Under the pieces are notes generated by a model, which saw nothing but the letters and a program-made list of their open reading frames with translations, made no database searches and was not told the origin of the DNA. From Dissulfurispira thermophila (GTDB lineage Bacteria > Nitrospirota > Thermodesulfovibrionia > Thermodesulfovibrionales > Dissulfurispiraceae), in contig NZ_AP022873.1 of the NCBI RefSeq assembly GCF_014701235.1, forward strand, positions 992,001 to 1,056,000: a stretch of DNA of 64,000 nt, read 5' to 3'. Both the position numbers and the translations under genes were made by a program. Positions 28,764-58,866 of this stretch are shown one piece after another (position 1 is the first letter of the stretch; every line of letters starts with the position of its first letter).

Positions 28764-29561
28764 ATGCATAAATTTAGATCACTTGTAATAATTTTTATTG
28801 TTTTTTTATTCTTAACTTTAACATCAACATTAACCTATTCGTTTAGCAAAGCAGGTTGTGAAGGTGATTGTAAGAAATGTCATTCTTTGAGCACACAAGA
28901 AGTTAATAACATCCTGAAGAAGATGAATCTTTCTCATGCAAAGACTCTGGATATACGGTTGAGCCCTGTGAAAAGCCTCTGGGAAATACATATAGACGAT
29001 AATGGCAAAAAAGGTATCTTTTATGTGGATTTTTCAAAGAAATATCTTCTGCCAGGTCCTATTATTGAGTTAGATACAGGTTCTAATAAGACCGCAGAAA
29101 GTATCCAAAAGATTCCTATAGGCCATGCAGATGTTTCGAAAATACCGCTAAATAATGCATTGGTTATGGGTAATGCTAATGCATCCAAAAAGGTGATTGT
29201 ATTTACTGATCCTGATTGACCGTACTGTGGCAGACTTCATCAGGAGATGAAGAAGGTTTTAGAAAAGAGAAAGGACATAGTGTTTTATATAAAGTTATTT
29301 CCGCTTAAAATGCATAAAGATGCATACTGGAAATCTAAAAGTATTGCGTGTAATAATTCTATGAAAATGCTCGAGGACAATTTTGAAAAAAAATCAATAC
29401 CTAAAGATGACTGCGATACAAAAGAGATAGATGATAATATAAAACTCGCAGAATCTCTTGGCATTACAGGCACACCTGCATTGATAATGCCCGATGGCAG
29501 GATTTATTCAGGTTTAATGCCTGCTGATAGACTCATAGAGATTATCAACAGGAGGAAATGA
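28764..29561 (+). CDS. Putative selenoprotein: DsbC/DsbG-like thiol-disulfide protein with in-frame UGA
   Basis: 265 residues if UGA at 29217-29219 is read as selenocysteine (position 152). The frame continues unbroken from FTDPD through UGA to PYCGRLHQEM, exactly where DsbC/DsbG proteins have CPYC, giving a UxxC active site. A 7-bp hairpin (CTTCATC 29235-29241, loop AGGA, GATGAAG 29246-29252) lies 15 bases downstream with G at the second loop base, fitting the bacterial SECIS rule. The N-terminus has a signal peptide, then GCEGDCKKCH, a CxxCH motif, and a DsbC-type dimerisation-like region. The C-terminus has the cis-Pro TPALIMPDG. Its true stop overlaps the kinase start (ATGA). The alternative is a nonsense pseudogene. 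Confidence 0.82.
29235..29252 (+). promoter_or_regulatory. Candidate bacterial SECIS hairpin
   Basis: Seven perfect base pairs closing the tetraloop AGGA, located 15 bases after the UGA at 29217-29219; the loop begins 22 bases after it. Known bacterial SECIS elements place the apical loop about 16-37 bases from UGA and need a G in the first two loop bases. Both hold. Confidence 0.65.
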
Positions 29562-30448
29562 AAGCCGACACTTATACCTCTCCTGATATTGTTATTATTT
29601 TCCTGACAGTCTCTATTTTTCTAATATTGCTCTTTATTGTTGTGATATTTTTACCCCGCCTCTTTAAGAAGCATGAAATAAAAACAGAAAATGCGGATAT
29701 GAATACTCTTGTGAATGCATTCAGTGCACTTGGAAATGAAATAAAATCCCTCAAGGACCAACTTGTGATAAAAGAAAGACTTGCTGCATTAGGAGAGGTA
29801 TCAGCAGGAATAGCCCATGAATTCAGAAATCCCATGGGTGTGATAACAGGATATGCAAGACTTCTTTTAAAGAGCCTTGATGAAAATGATAAGAGAAAAG
29901 AAATTGTTCAGGGTATTCTCAAGGAAATTGAAGATATGAATCATATTATGGAAGAATTGCTTAAATTTTCAAAATCAGAACCAATAAAGAAAACTGATAT
30001 AAACCTTACAAAATCTATAAGAGATGTTGTTCAGGATATTGACAGCTCAGGACATAAGATAGACTTCAAATGTAGTGAAGAGGTCTTTATAAAAGGTGAT
30101 GAAATATTGTTGAAACAGGCAATAAGAAATATCATCATGAATGCTGTGGATGCAGGAAACAAAGTATGGATAGATGTAGAGCGTGAAGCACATGATATGG
30201 GGCATCAGGCAATGAATGTGGAAATTCAAAGAGATGGCGTTTATATTAATGTCATGGATAACGGGGCAGGTATTGCTGAAAAAGATATTGATAAAATATT
30301 TATGCCATTTTATACAACTAAACAAGGTGGCATAGGAATAGGCCTTGCACTTGTGCAGAAGATAGTAACAGAACATGGTGGGAATATTACTGTAAAAAGT
30401 AAAGAAGGAGAGGGCAGCACTTTCAAGGTGTTTTTGCCGATGGAGTAG
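29558..30448 (+). CDS. Membrane sensor histidine kinase (PilS/NtrB-like)
   Basis: 296 residues. One membrane helix (IVIIFLTVSIFLILLFIVVIFLP, 11-33 region), a short linker, then HisKA with the phospho-acceptor His in GIAHEFRNPMG and HATPase boxes (NIIMNAVDAG, VMDNGAGI, GGIGIGLALV). No large sensor domain is present, so the signal may enter through the membrane or a partner. It follows the selenoprotein with a 4-base overlap and precedes a sigma-54 activator, suggesting a redox-linked signal. Partner assignment is inferred from adjacency. Confidence 0.9.
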   Translation: MKADTYTSPDIVIIFLTVSIFLILLFIVVIFLPRLFKKHEIKTENADMNTLVNAFSALGNEIKSLKDQLVIKERLAALGEVSAGIAHEFRNPMGVITGYARLLLKSLDENDKRKEIVQGILKEIEDMNHIMEELLKFSKSEPIKKTDINLTKSIRDVVQDIDSSGHKIDFKCSEEVFIKGDEILLKQAIRNIIMNAVDAGNKVWIDVEREAHDMGHQAMNVEIQRDGVYINVMDNGAGIAEKDIDKIFMPFYTTKQGGIGIGLALVQKIVTEHGGNITVKSKEGEGSTFKVFLPME

Positions 30449-30469: not shown

Positions 30470-31819
30470 ATGCAAACAATCCTGATAGTTGAGGACAAAA
30501 AAAGTATGGCAGATATGCTATCCAGAACCTTCGAATCCCAAGGATTTGTTGTTAAAACCGCATATAATGTCAAGGAAGGGGTGTCTTTTCTCTCATCTGA
30601 CTTGAGTGCTGTAGTTACAGACCTGAAATTGCCTGATGGAGACGGCATAGAGATTGTGAAGACAATAAAGGAAAATTATCCATTTATACCTGTGATTCTA
30701 ATGACTGCATATGGAAGCATAGAAACTGCTGTAAGAGCAGTAAAAGAAGGTGCTTATGATTTTATTACAAAGCCATTTGATCCTGACCATCTTTTGTTGA
30801 TAGTCAAAAGGGCAATAGACGAAAAAGGCATGGAGCGGGAAAACATTATACTAAAAAAAGAGTTTTCAAAGTTTCTCAAAATGCCAGAGATAATAGGGGT
30901 GAGCAGACACTGGAATGAGATAATGGAAGGGGTGAAAAAGATTGCCCGACTTAAGACCACTGTGTTGATACTTGGAGAGAGTGGAACAGGAAAAGAGCTT
31001 ATAGCAAAAGCAATACACTACCTAAGCCCAAGGGCAAAAGAACCTTTTGTTGCTGTTAATTGTGCAGCGATTCCAAAGGACTTGATAGAGAATGAAATCT
31101 TCGGGCATGAAAAAGGTGCATTTACAGGTGCAGGTGAAACAAAGATAGGGAGATTTGAGCTTGCAAATAGAGGAACTATTTTCCTTGATGAAATAGGGGA
31201 TATGGAAATGCCCTTACAGTCAAAGCTTTTGAGAGTGCTGCAGGAGAATGAATTTGAAAGAGTGGGTGGGACAAAGACAATAAAGGTTGATGTAAGAGTT
31301 ATTGCAGCGAGCAATAAAAATCTTCAGAGAGAGGTTTCCGAGGGACGTTTTAGGGAAGACCTGTTTTATAGACTGAATGTGTTTCCAGTAGTTATACCGC
31401 CATTAAGGGAGAGGAGAGAAGACATTATTCCTCTTGCATGCTATTTTATTTCACAGTTTTGTCGGGATATGAATAAAAACGAGCCTTCTATTTCTATAGA
31501 GGCAGAGAGAATTCTCATGGGACATGACTGGAAAGGCAATGTAAGGGAACTAAAGAATGTGATAGAGAGGGCTGTTATCCTGTGCGATGGCGAAACCCTT
31601 TTACCCGAACATCTGAGTTTTGGTGTGGAAATGAAAGAGAAGATTGATTCAATTACTTCACTACATGAGGTTGGTGAGTCCGCAGCAAAATCTGCTGAAA
31701 AGGCACAAATAGAGGCTGTCTTGATGCAAACAAAAGGAAATAAGAGCAGGGCAGCAGAAATCTTGAAGGTCAGTTATAAGACGCTTTTGAACAAGATAAA
31801 GGAATATGACATTGGCTGA
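30470..31819 (+). CDS. Sigma-54-dependent response regulator (PilR/NtrC-like)
   Basis: 449 residues: receiver domain (LIVEDKKSMADML, phospho-Asp in VTDLKLPDGDG), AAA+ domain with Walker A GESGTGKE, the sigma-54 contact loop GAFTGAGE and Walker B FLDEIGD, and a Fis-type HTH (GNKSRAAEILKVSYKTLLNKI). It activates sigma-54 promoters; a good sigma-54 site occurs 105 bases downstream before the minor-pilin operon, so PilR-like control of pilus genes is likely. Confidence 0.93.
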   Translation: MQTILIVEDKKSMADMLSRTFESQGFVVKTAYNVKEGVSFLSSDLSAVVTDLKLPDGDGIEIVKTIKENYPFIPVILMTAYGSIETAVRAVKEGAYDFITKPFDPDHLLLIVKRAIDEKGMERENIILKKEFSKFLKMPEIIGVSRHWNEIMEGVKKIARLKTTVLILGESGTGKELIAKAIHYLSPRAKEPFVAVNCAAIPKDLIENEIFGHEKGAFTGAGETKIGRFELANRGTIFLDEIGDMEMPLQSKLLRVLQENEFERVGGTKTIKVDVRVIAASNKNLQREVSEGRFREDLFYRLNVFPVVIPPLRERREDIIPLACYFISQFCRDMNKNEPSISIEAERILMGHDWKGNVRELKNVIERAVILCDGETLLPEHLSFGVEMKEKIDSITSLHEVGESAAKSAEKAQIEAVLMQTKGNKSRAAEILKVSYKTLLNKIKEYDIG

Positions 31820-31923: not shown

Positions 31924-31939
31924 TGGCATTTTAATTGCT
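31924..31939 (+). promoter_or_regulatory. Sigma-54 promoter of the minor-pilin operon
   Basis: TGGCAT (31924-31929), five bases, TTGCT (31935-31939): consensus TGGCAC-N5-TTGCW with one mismatch and the required GG/GC spacing of ten. Transcription should begin near 31950, which argues for the ATG at 31965 rather than 31950 as the first gene's start. Confidence 0.75.
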
Positions 31940-31964
31940 ATAATTTTTAATGGATGGGGCGTGT

Positions 31965-32459
31965 ATGAAAAGAATAGGGCAAAAAGGCTATTCACTTGTT
32001 GAGGCGTTGGTGGTTATTGCAATTATAGCAATTGTGGCTGCGATTGCAATACCAAATCTCCAGAGATATGCTGCTAATTCAAGGCTGAAAAACGCAGCGA
32101 GGGACATTATGGGTGATATTTTTCTTTGTAGAGAAAGGGCGATATCTGAGAATGTACAATACAGAATACAATTCAATATAACTAACAATAGCTACACAAT
32201 CGAACAACCTGCAGGCACAGTTATTCAAACAAAGAGTCCCTCGAGTTTTGCTGATAATATTAGGCTTATACAAAATATTCCAACTGCATGCTATGCAGGT
32301 GCGAGCACTACTTTTAATGTTACAACGGTTGACTTTCAGACACGAGGGACAATGAATCCAACAACCGGCACAATATTGTTAACAAATAATCGAGGGTCAA
32401 CAGCCACTATAACTTATAACATAACAGGGAGAACACATGTGTGCTTTCTTATGCAATAA
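31965..32459 (+). CDS. fimT: Type IV prepilin-like protein (FimT/GspH type)
   Basis: About 164 residues from ATG 31965 (GGGG seven bases before). The short leader KRIGQKG is followed by YSLVEALVVIAIIAIVAAIAIP: a prepilin peptidase site G|Y with Glu at +5. The C-terminal GspH/FimT domain is beta-rich (TVDFQTRGTMNPTTGTILLT). Minor pilins prime type IV pilus assembly in the inner membrane. It overlaps the next gene by 23 bases. Confidence 0.85.
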   Translation: MKRIGQKGYSLVEALVVIAIIAIVAAIAIPNLQRYAANSRLKNAARDIMGDIFLCRERAISENVQYRIQFNITNNSYTIEQPAGTVIQTKSPSSFADNIRLIQNIPTACYAGASTTFNVTTVDFQTRGTMNPTTGTILLTNNRGSTATITYNITGRTHVCFLMQ

Positions 32460-32925
32460 AAATGGATGGAGAGGCAACAGTGGTTTGAGTATGATAGAGG
32501 TACTTATAGCACTATTTCTGACTATGATTGGCGTTATGGCACTTATCTCTATGCAGACTCAGGGATGGTTATTATCAGGCAAGTCTGATTATCTGGGTAG
32601 GGCAGCAGAGATTTTGCATAAAGAATTAGAGACAAAAGAGGCATTAATAATGAATCCATGCAATATAGTTACAGTGGGGACATTTAATAAGAATATTTTT
32701 GCAAGTGGTTCTGCTGGAGGAGCAGGTGCAGGAGATGCAACACTTTCTATTCAGACTACTATTACTTTAATCACCACTAACACATGGCGATTAACTATCA
32801 GAGTTACATGGCCCGGTAATAATGCAGGAATAAGAGAGAGCCTCATAGTAACAAGGCAGGAATATTTCAGGTCTCCTGCAGGTTGTGCTGATAATTCACA
32901 GGCACTGAATTGGGGTGTATTATGA
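32437..32925 (+). CDS. pilV: Type IV minor pilin PilV-like
   Basis: 162 residues. After a 15-residue leader, G|LSMIEVLIALFLTMIGVMAL is a prepilin N-terminus. The remainder is a short beta-rich pilin domain (LRLTIRVTWPGN-like segment near 125). Second in the minor pilin order fimT-pilV-pilW-pilX-pilY1. Overlaps pilW by ATGA. Confidence 0.85.
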   Translation: MCAFLCNKNGWRGNSGLSMIEVLIALFLTMIGVMALISMQTQGWLLSGKSDYLGRAAEILHKELETKEALIMNPCNIVTVGTFNKNIFASGSAGGAGAGDATLSIQTTITLITTNTWRLTIRVTWPGNNAGIRESLIVTRQEYFRSPAGCADNSQALNWGVL

Positions 32926-33710
32926 ATATAAAAAACTCGCTGCGCATTACATATTGCTCGTTACTTAACAAAAGAGGCTTTACTCTTGTAGAAATACTAT
33001 TTGCTGTGACAATTGGTTTACTCTTGTTGAGTGCCATTTATATAGCAGTCAATTCAGGACAGAGGTCATCTGTTGCCATAGAGGCAAAGACTGCTGCACA
33101 GCAAGATGTGAGGGCAGCACTTGATTTGATGGCAATGGAGATAGGCATGGCATCATATAATCCAACATTTGCTTCAAATGACTTTATATGGTCAGACCTT
33201 TCTACTACATCGGGTCAAGGCTGTGGTGTAAATGCTTCAGTAACAAACCCAACATGGAAGGGAATTGTTGAGGCATCTTCTACTTCACTTACAGTTGAAG
33301 CTGACATCAATGGAGACGGTGTTGTGGGGAGCACTAATGAACCAAATGAAGTTATAAGATATGTATATGTAATAACTGGAGGCGAGCAATATATCACAAG
33401 ATGTTCTTGTTGTACTACATCTACGAATGGATCTGGTGGACAGCCTTTCTTAGGAGATTTAAGCACATCTGGAAGACCAAGGGGAGTGAGGGTTGTAAAT
33501 AATGTTAACAACATGCCAATTTTTCGATATTTTGATGGTAACGGTGTAGAGATATTTCCCGATGCGAATCCGTCAGTTATTCCAAATATTCGGCGCATAG
33601 ATATAACCATTGCAGTTGACACAGATAGCATTGACCCAAACACAGGGCAGAGGAGAAGGATGATTTATTCAACAAGCGTTATACCGAGAAATCATGCAAT
33701 CAGTCAATAA
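32922..33710 (+). CDS. pilW: Type IV minor pilin PilW-like
   Basis: About 262 residues from ATG 32922, which overlaps the pilV stop. Prepilin site RG|FTLVEILFAVTIGLLLLSAIY, then KTAAQQDVRAALDLMAMEIGMA, typical of PilW. Contains a Cys cluster (CSCCTTSTN, about residue 165). Part of the tip-priming complex with PilV/X/Y1. Confidence 0.87.
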   Translation: MNIKNSLRITYCSLLNKRGFTLVEILFAVTIGLLLLSAIYIAVNSGQRSSVAIEAKTAAQQDVRAALDLMAMEIGMASYNPTFASNDFIWSDLSTTSGQGCGVNASVTNPTWKGIVEASSTSLTVEADINGDGVVGSTNEPNEVIRYVYVITGGEQYITRCSCCTTSTNGSGGQPFLGDLSTSGRPRGVRVVNNVNNMPIFRYFDGNGVEIFPDANPSVIPNIRRIDITIAVDTDSIDPNTGQRRRMIYSTSVIPRNHAISQ

Positions 33711-33726
33711 ATATAGGAGTCCAGTT

Positions 33727-34176
33727 ATGAAGGGATTAAAAGTAAAAAATAAAAAAGGTTTTGCCATGATTGCTGCATTGCTTGCGATTTTAATGCTTAC
33801 AGCAGTTGGGGTTCTTGTTTTTACTGTAACAACACGAGATATAAGGGTAAGTGCAAGGGTTACAGGTGAGAAGAAGGCACTTTCTGCTGCAGAGGCGGGC
33901 ATTCATCAGGTAATACAGAATTTTGCTGTCGGAGGCACAGCCAGCAATGTACAGGTTGACACTGCCTCGGACCTTGATACAAGATATTCATATGCTATAG
34001 GGGCATCTTCAAGCGGCTGCACTCCGCCACCAGCAGGTTTTGATATTGAAAAATGGAGCGAGGATATGTATGTTGCCAATGTAACAGGAACTAACACCCG
34101 ATATGGTAGCTCAGTTCAGATAGATGTGGGGATTGGTCTTTTTAAAAGTGGAACATGTGCAAAAACTACTGATTAG
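33727..34176 (+). CDS. pilX: Type IV minor pilin PilX-like
   Basis: About 149 residues from ATG 33727 with AGGAG eight bases upstream; an earlier ATG at 33694 would overlap pilW. KKG|FAMIAALLAILMLTAVGVLVF lacks the Glu at +5, as is usual for PilX, followed by the KKALSAAEAGIHQ motif of the PilX N-terminal family. The first member of the pilus tip sub-complex to contact PilY1 in known systems. Confidence 0.85.
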   Translation: MKGLKVKNKKGFAMIAALLAILMLTAVGVLVFTVTTRDIRVSARVTGEKKALSAAEAGIHQVIQNFAVGGTASNVQVDTASDLDTRYSYAIGASSSGCTPPPAGFDIEKWSEDMYVANVTGTNTRYGSSVQIDVGIGLFKSGTCAKTTD

Positions 34177-34191
34177 AAAGGAGGCATACCT

Positions 34192-37182
34192 ATGTTTAAG
34201 ATTAAGATGATAAATGCAGTTTTTTTATTTGTCATAATTCTCTGTCTTATTTTTTCAGGGAATGTTTATTCTGATGAGACTGCACTTTTTACAACTGTTG
34301 CACCTGATGCGATTATAGTCCTTGATTTATCCGGCAGCATGAACTGGAATCCTGCTGGAGGCACTGCTACCTCTACAAGCCTGCCATGCACAAGTTCATC
34401 ATGCAGCCGTCTTGCTATTGCAAAAACAGCGATTTTTAATATATTGGATGACAACAACAACGGCACTATAAATAGCAGTGATGAAAGCAGCCTTAATATA
34501 AGAATCGGATATATGAGATTCAGAGATGGAAACGATACAGGTGGTAATTATGCAAGCGGCTATATTCGATTGATATGGGGAATTGGTTCGAGATATAGTC
34601 GTATATACTGTAATAACGCAACGAGTTGTACAATTACCACTAATGCAGGGGAAAGCAGCAGCGCCACATGGATAAGCGGTGAAAGGGCAAATGGAGGAAC
34701 ACCCCTTGCATCTGCATTAAATGAAGCAAAGCTTTATCTCGATGCCAATAAGGCATCTGATTCTGCCGGAGCCTGCAGACAGAAATTTGTCATACTTATT
34801 ACAGATGGTGCAGATACCTATGCATGCAGCGGGGATGGTTCAGAAAATCAATCCGATATGTACAAAAGGAGAAGGGAGACAGTTGCAAAGGCAAAGGCAC
34901 TGGCAGATGCTGGATATAAGGTCTTTGTAATCGGTTTTGGCGCAGATATGCCCACCTGTCTCAAAAGGACACTTAACTGGGCGGCTTATTATGGTGGTAC
35001 TGATAATCCACTTCAGGCAAATTCTGGGAGCACAAGTGGATATAATATTCCTGAGGGCAGTCTTTATCCATCTGGCGTATCAAGCTGTTCTACAGATTCA
35101 ACGAGTGTTAGCAGCAACATATGTGGTAAGGGTGGGGGAACTGGTGATAGAGTGGCAAACTCCAATGACCCTGCTACTGCTCCACTTGATGGATATGCCT
35201 TTTTAGCAACAAATGCTGATGAATTAACTACTGCTTTGCGACAGGCAGTAAATATTATTAGAGAGGCAAACTATGCATTTTCAGCAGGAGCAGTTGCATC
35301 AACACGGACACAGGATGAGAATCATATTTATGAGGCATCGTTTCAGCCTGTTAATAACGATCCATTCTGGCTTGGACATTTAAAGAAATATACCATAAAT
35401 GCTGATGGCAGTGTTGGCAGTGCTGTATGGGATGCTGGAACTCAGCTACAGGCAAAGTCCGCTGCAAGCAGGAATATTTACACATATAAATCAGGCTCAA
35501 TGGTAGTCTTTAATACAGCCAATATCACAACAACAGATCTTGGGGTTTCAACTTCTGCAGAAAGGGATGCTATTGTTGGATATATCAGAGGTGAAACTAC
35601 ATATAATCAAGATAACTGGAAACTTGGTGATATATTTCGTTCAAATCCTGTTTTAATAGGAACCCCGCTAACATATTTCAGTGACTTCAGGGATGTAAAT
35701 AATGCCTTTTCCACATTCAGGACAAATAATCAAAGGACATCTTCAAATGGATTGATGATTGCTGCTGCGGGTGCAAATGATGGGCAGTTCCATGCCTTTA
35801 AGACATCAGACGGATCAGAGGCATGGAGCTTTATACCACCTAATCTTTTGCCAAAATTAAAACTGATAGCACACACTACCCATCCAACAGGACTTACACA
35901 TCAGTATTTTGTTGATGGTCCTGTGACATATGCTGATGTGTGGCTCGGCACAGGTGATGGAACCAGCAAGAGTGCTAACGACTGGAAGACCCTTGTTGTA
36001 TTTGCAGAGGGCAGAGGTGCTATTTCATATTTATGGAGTTCATCGGACTCATGCGACTCTGGATTTAACTCGACATATACATCAACATACAAATATTATT
36101 GCGGGTATCATGCACTGGATGTTACGAATACATTGAGTCCATTATACAACTGGAATATTGTTCCGTCTTCAACAAATGCCCCATATTTAGGCGAGCCGTG
36201 GAGCAAGATGTCCATAGGAAGAGTAAAGATCAGTGGCAACGAGAAATGGGTTGGTTTTATCGGAGGTGGTTATAATGCGTCTGACTGTGCAGGTGGTGGA
36301 AGTTGTGATACAAGAGGAAAGGGATTTTATGTAATAGATATGAGTGATGGAAGTGTCTTATGGAGCTATACAAGGGCTAATAATTCAAGCATGAATTACA
36401 GTCTCCCAGCACCACCTGCTGCATTGGATACAGACAATGATGGATTTATTGATACAGTTTATATTGGAGATTTAGGTGGGAATATGTGGAGATTTAAACT
36501 TTGCTCATCAAGTGATAATAGCTCATGCAATACTTCAACATGGACATCGAGAGCAGGATTTCTGTTTCAGGCATCTTCAGGTGTAATAAGACCTATTTAT
36601 ACAAAGGCTGTTGCTGCAAAAGACGTGAGTGGTAACATGTGGGTGTACTGGGGCACAGGTGATAAAACTGACCCTACATCATCATCAGCACAGGAAAAGT
36701 TTTATGCCTTAAAAGATGGTGGAGATAGCTATAGTATTAATGACATGGAAAATTTGACTGCATCTGGAAGCACATATAGCGGCGTTAAACAGGGCTGGTA
36801 TATAAATCTTGCTGGAAGCGGTGAAAAGATACTGGCAGAACCTGCTGTTTTTGGTGGTGTTGTTTATTTTACTACTTACACACCTGCTACAGGGGGAAAC
36901 GTATGTGAGCAGGCAGGAACTCCAAAACTTTATGCAGTAGGCTATACAAGTGGCGCTGGAGCATTAACAGGTGGTACAAGGGCTACTACACTGCCCGGCG
37001 TAGGCATACCCTCTGCTCCAATTATTTCACTGAGACCTGATTCCGGAACACCTGACCTTTATGTAACTACAAGTGGAGGTGCAGGGACAGATGCAAATAC
37101 AGGGAAACCGCCAGGTGTTAATCCACAAGGACTTTCACAGACGAGAAATATAAAATACTGGAGAGATAGGAGATTACAATAA
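34192..37182 (+). CDS. pilY1: PilY1-like type IV pilus tip adhesin with VWA domain
   Basis: 996 residues with a signal peptide. A von Willebrand A domain (about 38-245) has the MIDAS DLSGS and FVILITDGADTY. The C-terminal half is a PilY1 beta-propeller (LMIAAAGANDGQFHAFKTSDGSEAW, WVGFIGGGYNASDC, ALDTDNDGFIDTVYIGDLGGNMWRF with a DxDxDG calcium loop). PilY1 caps the pilus tip, mediates adhesion and mechanosensing. Many Cys residues suggest disulfides, so a periplasmic Dsb system such as the upstream selenoprotein could matter. Confidence 0.93.
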   Translation: MFKIKMINAVFLFVIILCLIFSGNVYSDETALFTTVAPDAIIVLDLSGSMNWNPAGGTATSTSLPCTSSSCSRLAIAKTAIFNILDDNNNGTINSSDESSLNIRIGYMRFRDGNDTGGNYASGYIRLIWGIGSRYSRIYCNNATSCTITTNAGESSSATWISGERANGGTPLASALNEAKLYLDANKASDSAGACRQKFVILITDGADTYACSGDGSENQSDMYKRRRETVAKAKALADAGYKVFVIGFGADMPTCLKRTLNWAAYYGGTDNPLQANSGSTSGYNIPEGSLYPSGVSSCSTDSTSVSSNICGKGGGTGDRVANSNDPATAPLDGYAFLATNADELTTALRQAVNIIREANYAFSAGAVASTRTQDENHIYEASFQPVNNDPFWLGHLKKYTINADGSVGSAVWDAGTQLQAKSAASRNIYTYKSGSMVVFNTANITTTDLGVSTSAERDAIVGYIRGETTYNQDNWKLGDIFRSNPVLIGTPLTYFSDFRDVNNAFSTFRTNNQRTSSNGLMIAAAGANDGQFHAFKTSDGSEAWSFIPPNLLPKLKLIAHTTHPTGLTHQYFVDGPVTYADVWLGTGDGTSKSANDWKTLVVFAEGRGAISYLWSSSDSCDSGFNSTYTSTYKYYCGYHALDVTNTLSPLYNWNIVPSSTNAPYLGEPWSKMSIGRVKISGNEKWVGFIGGGYNASDCAGGGSCDTRGKGFYVIDMSDGSVLWSYTRANNSSMNYSLPAPPAALDTDNDGFIDTVYIGDLGGNMWRFKLCSSSDNSSCNTSTWTSRAGFLFQASSGVIRPIYTKAVAAKDVSGNMWVYWGTGDKTDPTSSSAQEKFYALKDGGDSYSINDMENLTASGSTYSGVKQGWYINLAGSGEKILAEPAVFGGVVYFTTYTPATGGNVCEQAGTPKLYAVGYTSGAGALTGGTRATTLPGVGIPSAPIISLRPDSGTPDLYVTTSGGAGTDANTGKPPGVNPQGLSQTRNIKYWRDRRLQ

Positions 37183-58694: not shown

Positions 58695-58756
58695 TCTAAA
58701 CAATAGTCTACCACTTAATTTGACATTTTTCAATTTGTTACTTTATAGTTTAAATA

Positions 58757-58852
58757 TCCCTGGGGGAGGCTAAATGCCTGAGAGTTTCCTGAGCAATGGA
58801 AAGACCCCACGAACCTGATCCAGATAATTCTGGCGTAGGGAATGGGAATTTA
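58757..58852 (+). promoter_or_regulatory. TPP riboswitch (THI element)
   Basis: Conserved parts are in order: GGGGGAGGC, the pyrimidine-sensing CTGAGA, GACCCC, GAACCTGATC, and CTGGCGTAGGGAATGGG. Thiamine pyrophosphate binding controls the thiSGEC operon downstream through the terminator at 58867-58905. Confidence 0.97.
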
Positions 58853-58866
58853 GAGATAAATTACAG

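Follow-up and report, generated by a model that had tools for sequence, protein, structure and literature searches.

The window analysed here, a stretch of 64,000 nucleotides of the Dissulfurispira thermophila genome, contains a dsbC-like gene whose product is almost certainly a selenocysteine (Sec)-containing enzyme of the DsbC type, with the in-frame UGA at codon 152 predicted to be decoded as selenocysteine. That degree of confidence covers the Sec-DsbC identity; the haem, substrate and pilus steps discussed below lie outside it. The selenoprotein reading is strongly supported because the genome carries the sel genes, homologues have cysteine in the UGA column and a downstream hairpin is kept only in UGA genes. 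In the proposed mechanism, SelB and tRNA-Sec would read the UGA as selenocysteine, with Sec insertion directed by this hairpin.

Table 1. Positions of the dsbC-like selenoprotein gene, its elements and the genes that follow it (window numbering)
Feature	Position	Strand	Remarks
dsbC-like selenoprotein gene	28764..29561	+	265 aa including Sec152; active site UPYC
Putative c-type haem attachment site CxxCH (C36-H40), past the signal peptide	28869..28883	+	His conserved after CxxC
In-frame UGA (Sec152), at the first position of UxxC	29217..29219	+	TGA/TGC/TGT column in homologues
Bacterial SECIS hairpin CTTCATC-AGGA-GATGAAG	29235..29252	+	All seven pairs formed in 75/75 UGA and 2/127 Cys genes
Histidine kinase (HisKA + HATPase_c) with a single TM helix and lacking a sensor domain	29558..30448	+	ATGA overlap with selenoprotein gene
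NtrC/PilR-type response regulator, sigma54-interaction domain	30470..31819	+	PF00158, 243 bits
sigma54 -24/-12 promoter-like site TGGCATTTTAATTGC	31924..31938	+	Present in 7/7 genomes with linked pilus operon
Pilus operon: GspH/PilV/PilW/PilX-like minor pilins and PilY1	31950..37182	+	Candidate regulon, possible substrates

Reading frame and homologues

A preliminary description, made from the sequence alone, proposed a frame open across one UGA, and this proves exact to the base: the only TGA triplets interrupting the frame are that of Sec152 and the terminal stop (29559-29561). Read with Sec, the product begins with a signal peptide followed by GCEGDCKKCHSL; the DsbC_N domain comes next, and then a thioredoxin domain with the active site FTDPD-U-PYC. 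It is the terminal stop that overlaps the start of the next gene as ATGA (29558-29561), as had been described, and the Sec UGA is not involved. The open-reading-frame caller divides the gene into two.

Homologues were matched in 29 of 31 genomes of the same taxonomic family and in 148 of 396 genomes of a phylum sample, and a scan of named genomes adds others from Nitrospirae, Deltaproteobacteria, Syntrophaceae, Nitrospinota and Desulfuromonadales records. Across 202 distinct homologous sites the codon in the Sec152 column is TGA in 75, TGC in 79 and TGT in 48. The UGA had been described as replacing the first cysteine of a CPYC motif, with an alignment of homologues as the suggested check, and cysteine indeed occupies this column at 127 of the 202 sites. 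All but one of the 75 TGA genes retain the resolving Cys155. On the family tree, the state switches between Sec and Cys at least 24 times.

A miscalled TGC or TGT codon, or a true premature stop in a pseudogene, could in principle account for the UGA, since TGA differs from either cysteine codon by a single base and the gene is split by the caller. This explanation retains practically no probability: across many genera and independent assemblies, 75 homologous sites have TGA at this very codon, always with the hairpin and with frames otherwise intact, and the kinase gene still overlaps as ATGA.

One divergent UGA homologue (L057; G017:C20:5304-5723) has UGVS in place of UxxC; its hairpin is intact, and it has neither the resolving cysteine nor the CxxCH. 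Tandem pairs also occur (L277, L284 and L285), in which a Cys copy with the motif CEEDCMKCH lies close to a Sec copy; CxxCH was not found in the Sec copies of these pairs, which suggests that the haem-motif and Sec forms divide labour.

The SECIS hairpin

A 7 bp hairpin with an AGGA loop, matching the bacterial SECIS distance and loop-G rule, had been placed at exactly the coordinates in Table 1. It begins 15 nt past the UGA, and a 7 bp Watson-Crick stem with a 4 nt loop occurs at only ten of 63,982 positions in the window. All seven Watson-Crick pairs are present at the same spacing in every one of the 75 TGA genes, compared with two of the 127 Cys genes, and the G at loop position 27 (counting from the U of UGA) is found in every Sec gene, in agreement with that rule.

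Constraint on the encoded peptide could have produced the same hairpin, as the stem encodes LH..MK and the Cys genes have a similar peptide there. This possibility was rejected: Cys genes with a similar peptide break the stem, and it is only in Sec genes that synonymous sites have become fixed. Third codon positions beneath the stem are fixed at 97-100% in Sec genes versus 41-64% in Cys genes. Where the residues are identical, nearly all Sec genes use CTT, CAT and AAG, which is not so in Cys genes (Fisher tests 1e-13, 4e-8 and 6e-10, on the first 115 sites with relatedness ignored). The codon bias does not rest on one clade, because of the repeated switching of state on the tree. The covariation suggested as a check on the hairpin was obtained in part: a compensatory change from T-A to C-G is seen in two genes (L242 and L265), but, since the stem hardly varies, there is little covariation besides.

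Two Cys genes, L193 (TGT) and L130 (TGC), retain a perfect SECIS hairpin. These are probably fossil SECIS elements left by a recent change from Sec to Cys; the genome of L193 (G150) retains selA.

Selenoprotein machinery

The assembly of D. thermophila is a complete genome of 2.37 Mb, and the search for sel genes that had been proposed as a check recovered the full set: selA (630 bits), selB (378 bits), tRNA-Sec (65 bits, anticodon TCA) and selD (327 bits). The selD gene (L018 1501-2415; G000:C1:665512-666426) has an in-frame TGA of its own and is itself a selenoprotein gene (VRAAG-U-AAK), with a GC-rich hairpin, GGTCC-GTC-GGACC, downstream of the UGA.

Loss of the Sec machinery was considered as the origin of the Cys forms and rejected for the taxonomic family, in which selA is present in nearly all genomes sampled. 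At E <= 1e-60, selA is without a match in two genomes that have UGA forms (G163, at L240 and L255, and G232, at L277), perhaps owing to incompleteness or stray contigs.

Fold and predicted activity

The DsbC-like fold named in the preliminary description is borne out by several comparisons. The protein matches PF13098 (Thioredoxin_2; 70.9 bits, cut-off 27) and PF10411 (DsbC_N; 30.6 bits, cut-off 25), and a profile of 32 relatives searched against the PDB ranks DsbC structures first (E 4e-25). The AlphaFold model (pLDDT 89) is matched by Foldseek to DsbC over most of its length (E 6e-14). Full-length Foldseek matches to DsbC have a high rmsd; the catalytic domain alone fits at 2.4-2.7 Å, so that the high value may come from the two domains being arranged differently. 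Since it scores far below the cut-off of the NCBIfam DsbC equivalog (PRK10877; 77.9 bits versus 215), the protein is said to work like DsbC and is not filed as DsbC.

These matches point to a secreted thiol:disulfide oxidoreductase/isomerase of the DsbC type. The mature periplasmic protein would reduce or isomerise the disulfides of proteins that the cell exports, with Sec152 as the attacking and Cys155 as the resolving residue.

The N-terminal CxxCH motif

The CxxCH that had been noticed near the N-terminus is present as C36-K-K-C-H40. A CxxC followed by histidine is the signature of c-type haem attachment, and its occurrence in an exported protein corresponds to the sequence definition of a c-type cytochrome. 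Among the 184 homologues having CxxC at this position, 183 have the histidine, and the genome encodes cytochrome c assembly genes. The motif is thus probably a c-type haem site, and the haem that it would carry may link the active site with cytochromes of the periplasm. It is possible, if less likely, that the motif is instead a metal site or a second redox pair without haem, the enzyme then being a plain Sec-DsbC. Many members have an extra cysteine (C32 here) ahead of CxxCH, Syntrophaceae and some Sec copies have lost the motif and the AlphaFold model is poorly defined around it, all of which favour this alternative; the near-invariant histidine and the assembly genes argue against it. The protein combines a Sec disulfide active site with a c-haem motif, a pairing for which we know of no precedent, and its gene stands in a regulatory operon for pili.

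Genomic context

The PilS/PilR-like pair and the PilY1 pilus operon of the preliminary description correspond to genes for a histidine kinase and a response regulator that activates sigma54, followed by those for minor pilins and PilY1. The kinase is the next gene in 18 relatives as well as in the window, and the regulator also follows in 15 of these 18 and in the window; dsbC-like gene, kinase and sigma54 activator thus form a conserved operon shared by 16 genomes of that taxonomic family. Only one part of the dsbC-like family shows the kinase linkage, and the linked genes cluster on the tree except for L042, and most Sec-family members elsewhere have no adjoining kinase. The linked genes include both Sec (11 of 19 kinase-adjacent genes) and Cys forms (eight of 19), and a requirement of Sec for the linkage was rejected on this count.

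The pair had been likened to PilS/PilR, which holds for the regulator, with its sigma54 domain and conserved site, but not for the kinase. One transmembrane helix and no sensor domain are found in 17 of the 18 kinases read, the remaining one having been read from an internal start, and the H-box of the kinase in the window lies at residue 87 (83-89 in relatives read from the full start). The promoter-like site in Table 1 lies between the regulator and the pilus operon and has canonical -24/-12 spacing, and a TGGCA[TC]-N5-TTGC site is present in all six relatives with linked pilus genes. Because this site is conserved ahead of the pilus genes, there is good evidence for regarding the regulator as PilR-like and as a predicted controller of the pilus operon. 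The dsbC-like gene is probably co-transcribed with the kinase/PilR-type pair, which would activate the sigma54 pilus operon that follows. A cysteine-rich PilY1 pilus operon had been described; PilY1 is present but only moderately rich in cysteine (17 in 996 residues). Surface sensing in Pseudomonas depends in part on a cysteine in the vWA domain of PilY1 (PMC9210963). PilY1 and other pilus-tip proteins with disulfides are plausible candidate substrates of the enzyme. Elsewhere in the window, a TPP riboswitch (Rfam RF00059, 70.4 bits) lies at 58752-58859.

The further proposal of a selenium-dependent redox input to pilus expression goes beyond what the sequences show, as Cys forms share the operon and kinase and most Sec members lack an adjoining kinase; a direct selenium or redox input is attractive but unproven. 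It could take the form of a selenium-gated operon, an added role on top of Sec coding and not an alternative to it, by which pilus expression reports the selenium or redox state. Under selenium shortage, ribosomes would terminate at the UGA, some 340 nt short of the kinase start, giving less of the translationally coupled kinase, and the DsbC-like protein itself may serve as periplasmic input to the kinase, which lacks a sensor domain. The ATGA overlap in 12 of the 18 kinase neighbours, the single helix and missing sensor domain in 17 of them, the conserved gene order and the conserved sigma54 site are compatible with such gating, which we nevertheless consider unlikely: the same overlap and kinase occur in Cys relatives, so that translational coupling is independent of Sec, and the kinase gene has its own AGGAGG site. 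The fullest version, in which a haem-bearing Sec-DsbC would be the periplasmic sensory partner of the sensorless kinase, and selenium supply (acting by read-through of the UGA and by translational coupling) together with periplasmic redox state would set expression of the sigma54 pilus-tip operon, is speculative and quite improbable.

Comparison with known systems

Dsb-type selenoproteins with a UxxC motif have been listed since 2005 (PMC1088965, PMC1794560, PMC13188914). One is the DsbG-like selenoprotein NF041057, or Rcas_1661 family (PMC1088965, PMC13188914), which likewise has UxxC in a Dsb-type thioredoxin fold. Filing the present protein there was rejected, as the NF041057 model matches neither this genome nor this protein. 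Another is a 'thiol:disulfide interchange protein' (PF13098, UxxC; WP_011366075.1) of Geobacter metallireducens, G. uraniireducens and Syntrophus (PMC1794560, PMC13188914); compared by description only, it shares the PF13098 domain and the UxxC motif and may be a relative of the present family. The order to which the Geobacter locus L157 belongs was covered by 141 genomes, and in these no active-site TGA was found among the listed matches to the present family and no TGA within the listed PF13098 matches. The DsbC/DsbG of G. metallireducens is Gmet_2250 (PMC2700814). No Sec-DsbC from Nitrospirota was found in the literature covered, from which subscription papers are mostly absent, and no model specific to the Sec-DsbC family is present in the NCBIfam release searched.

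The family thus appears to be a large, unlisted lineage of full-length Sec-DsbC proteins with a CxxCH motif, a variant of the known UxxC Dsb-like selenoproteins. Standard annotation would split or truncate at least 75 genes of this type. With its many Sec/Cys exchanges on one tree, the family is a good natural experiment on the causes of Sec gain and loss, and it is also suited to timing how quickly SECIS elements decay.

The protein resembles Escherichia coli DsbC (1eej, 1jzd) in its two-domain architecture, the position of CxxC, the signal peptide and the conserved Thr-Pro loop of the thioredoxin fold, and differs in having Sec for the first active-site cysteine and an additional N-terminal CxxCH. 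The operon resembles that of PilS-PilR in Pseudomonas (PMC6058289) in placing a kinase and a sigma54 activator beside a sigma54-controlled pilus operon. Unlike Pseudomonas PilS, which has several transmembrane helices and a sensor region, the kinase here has a single helix and lacks a sensor region; the genes likely to be targeted are those of a minor pilin/PilY1 operon, and a dsbC-like gene stands first in the operon of the kinase and regulator.
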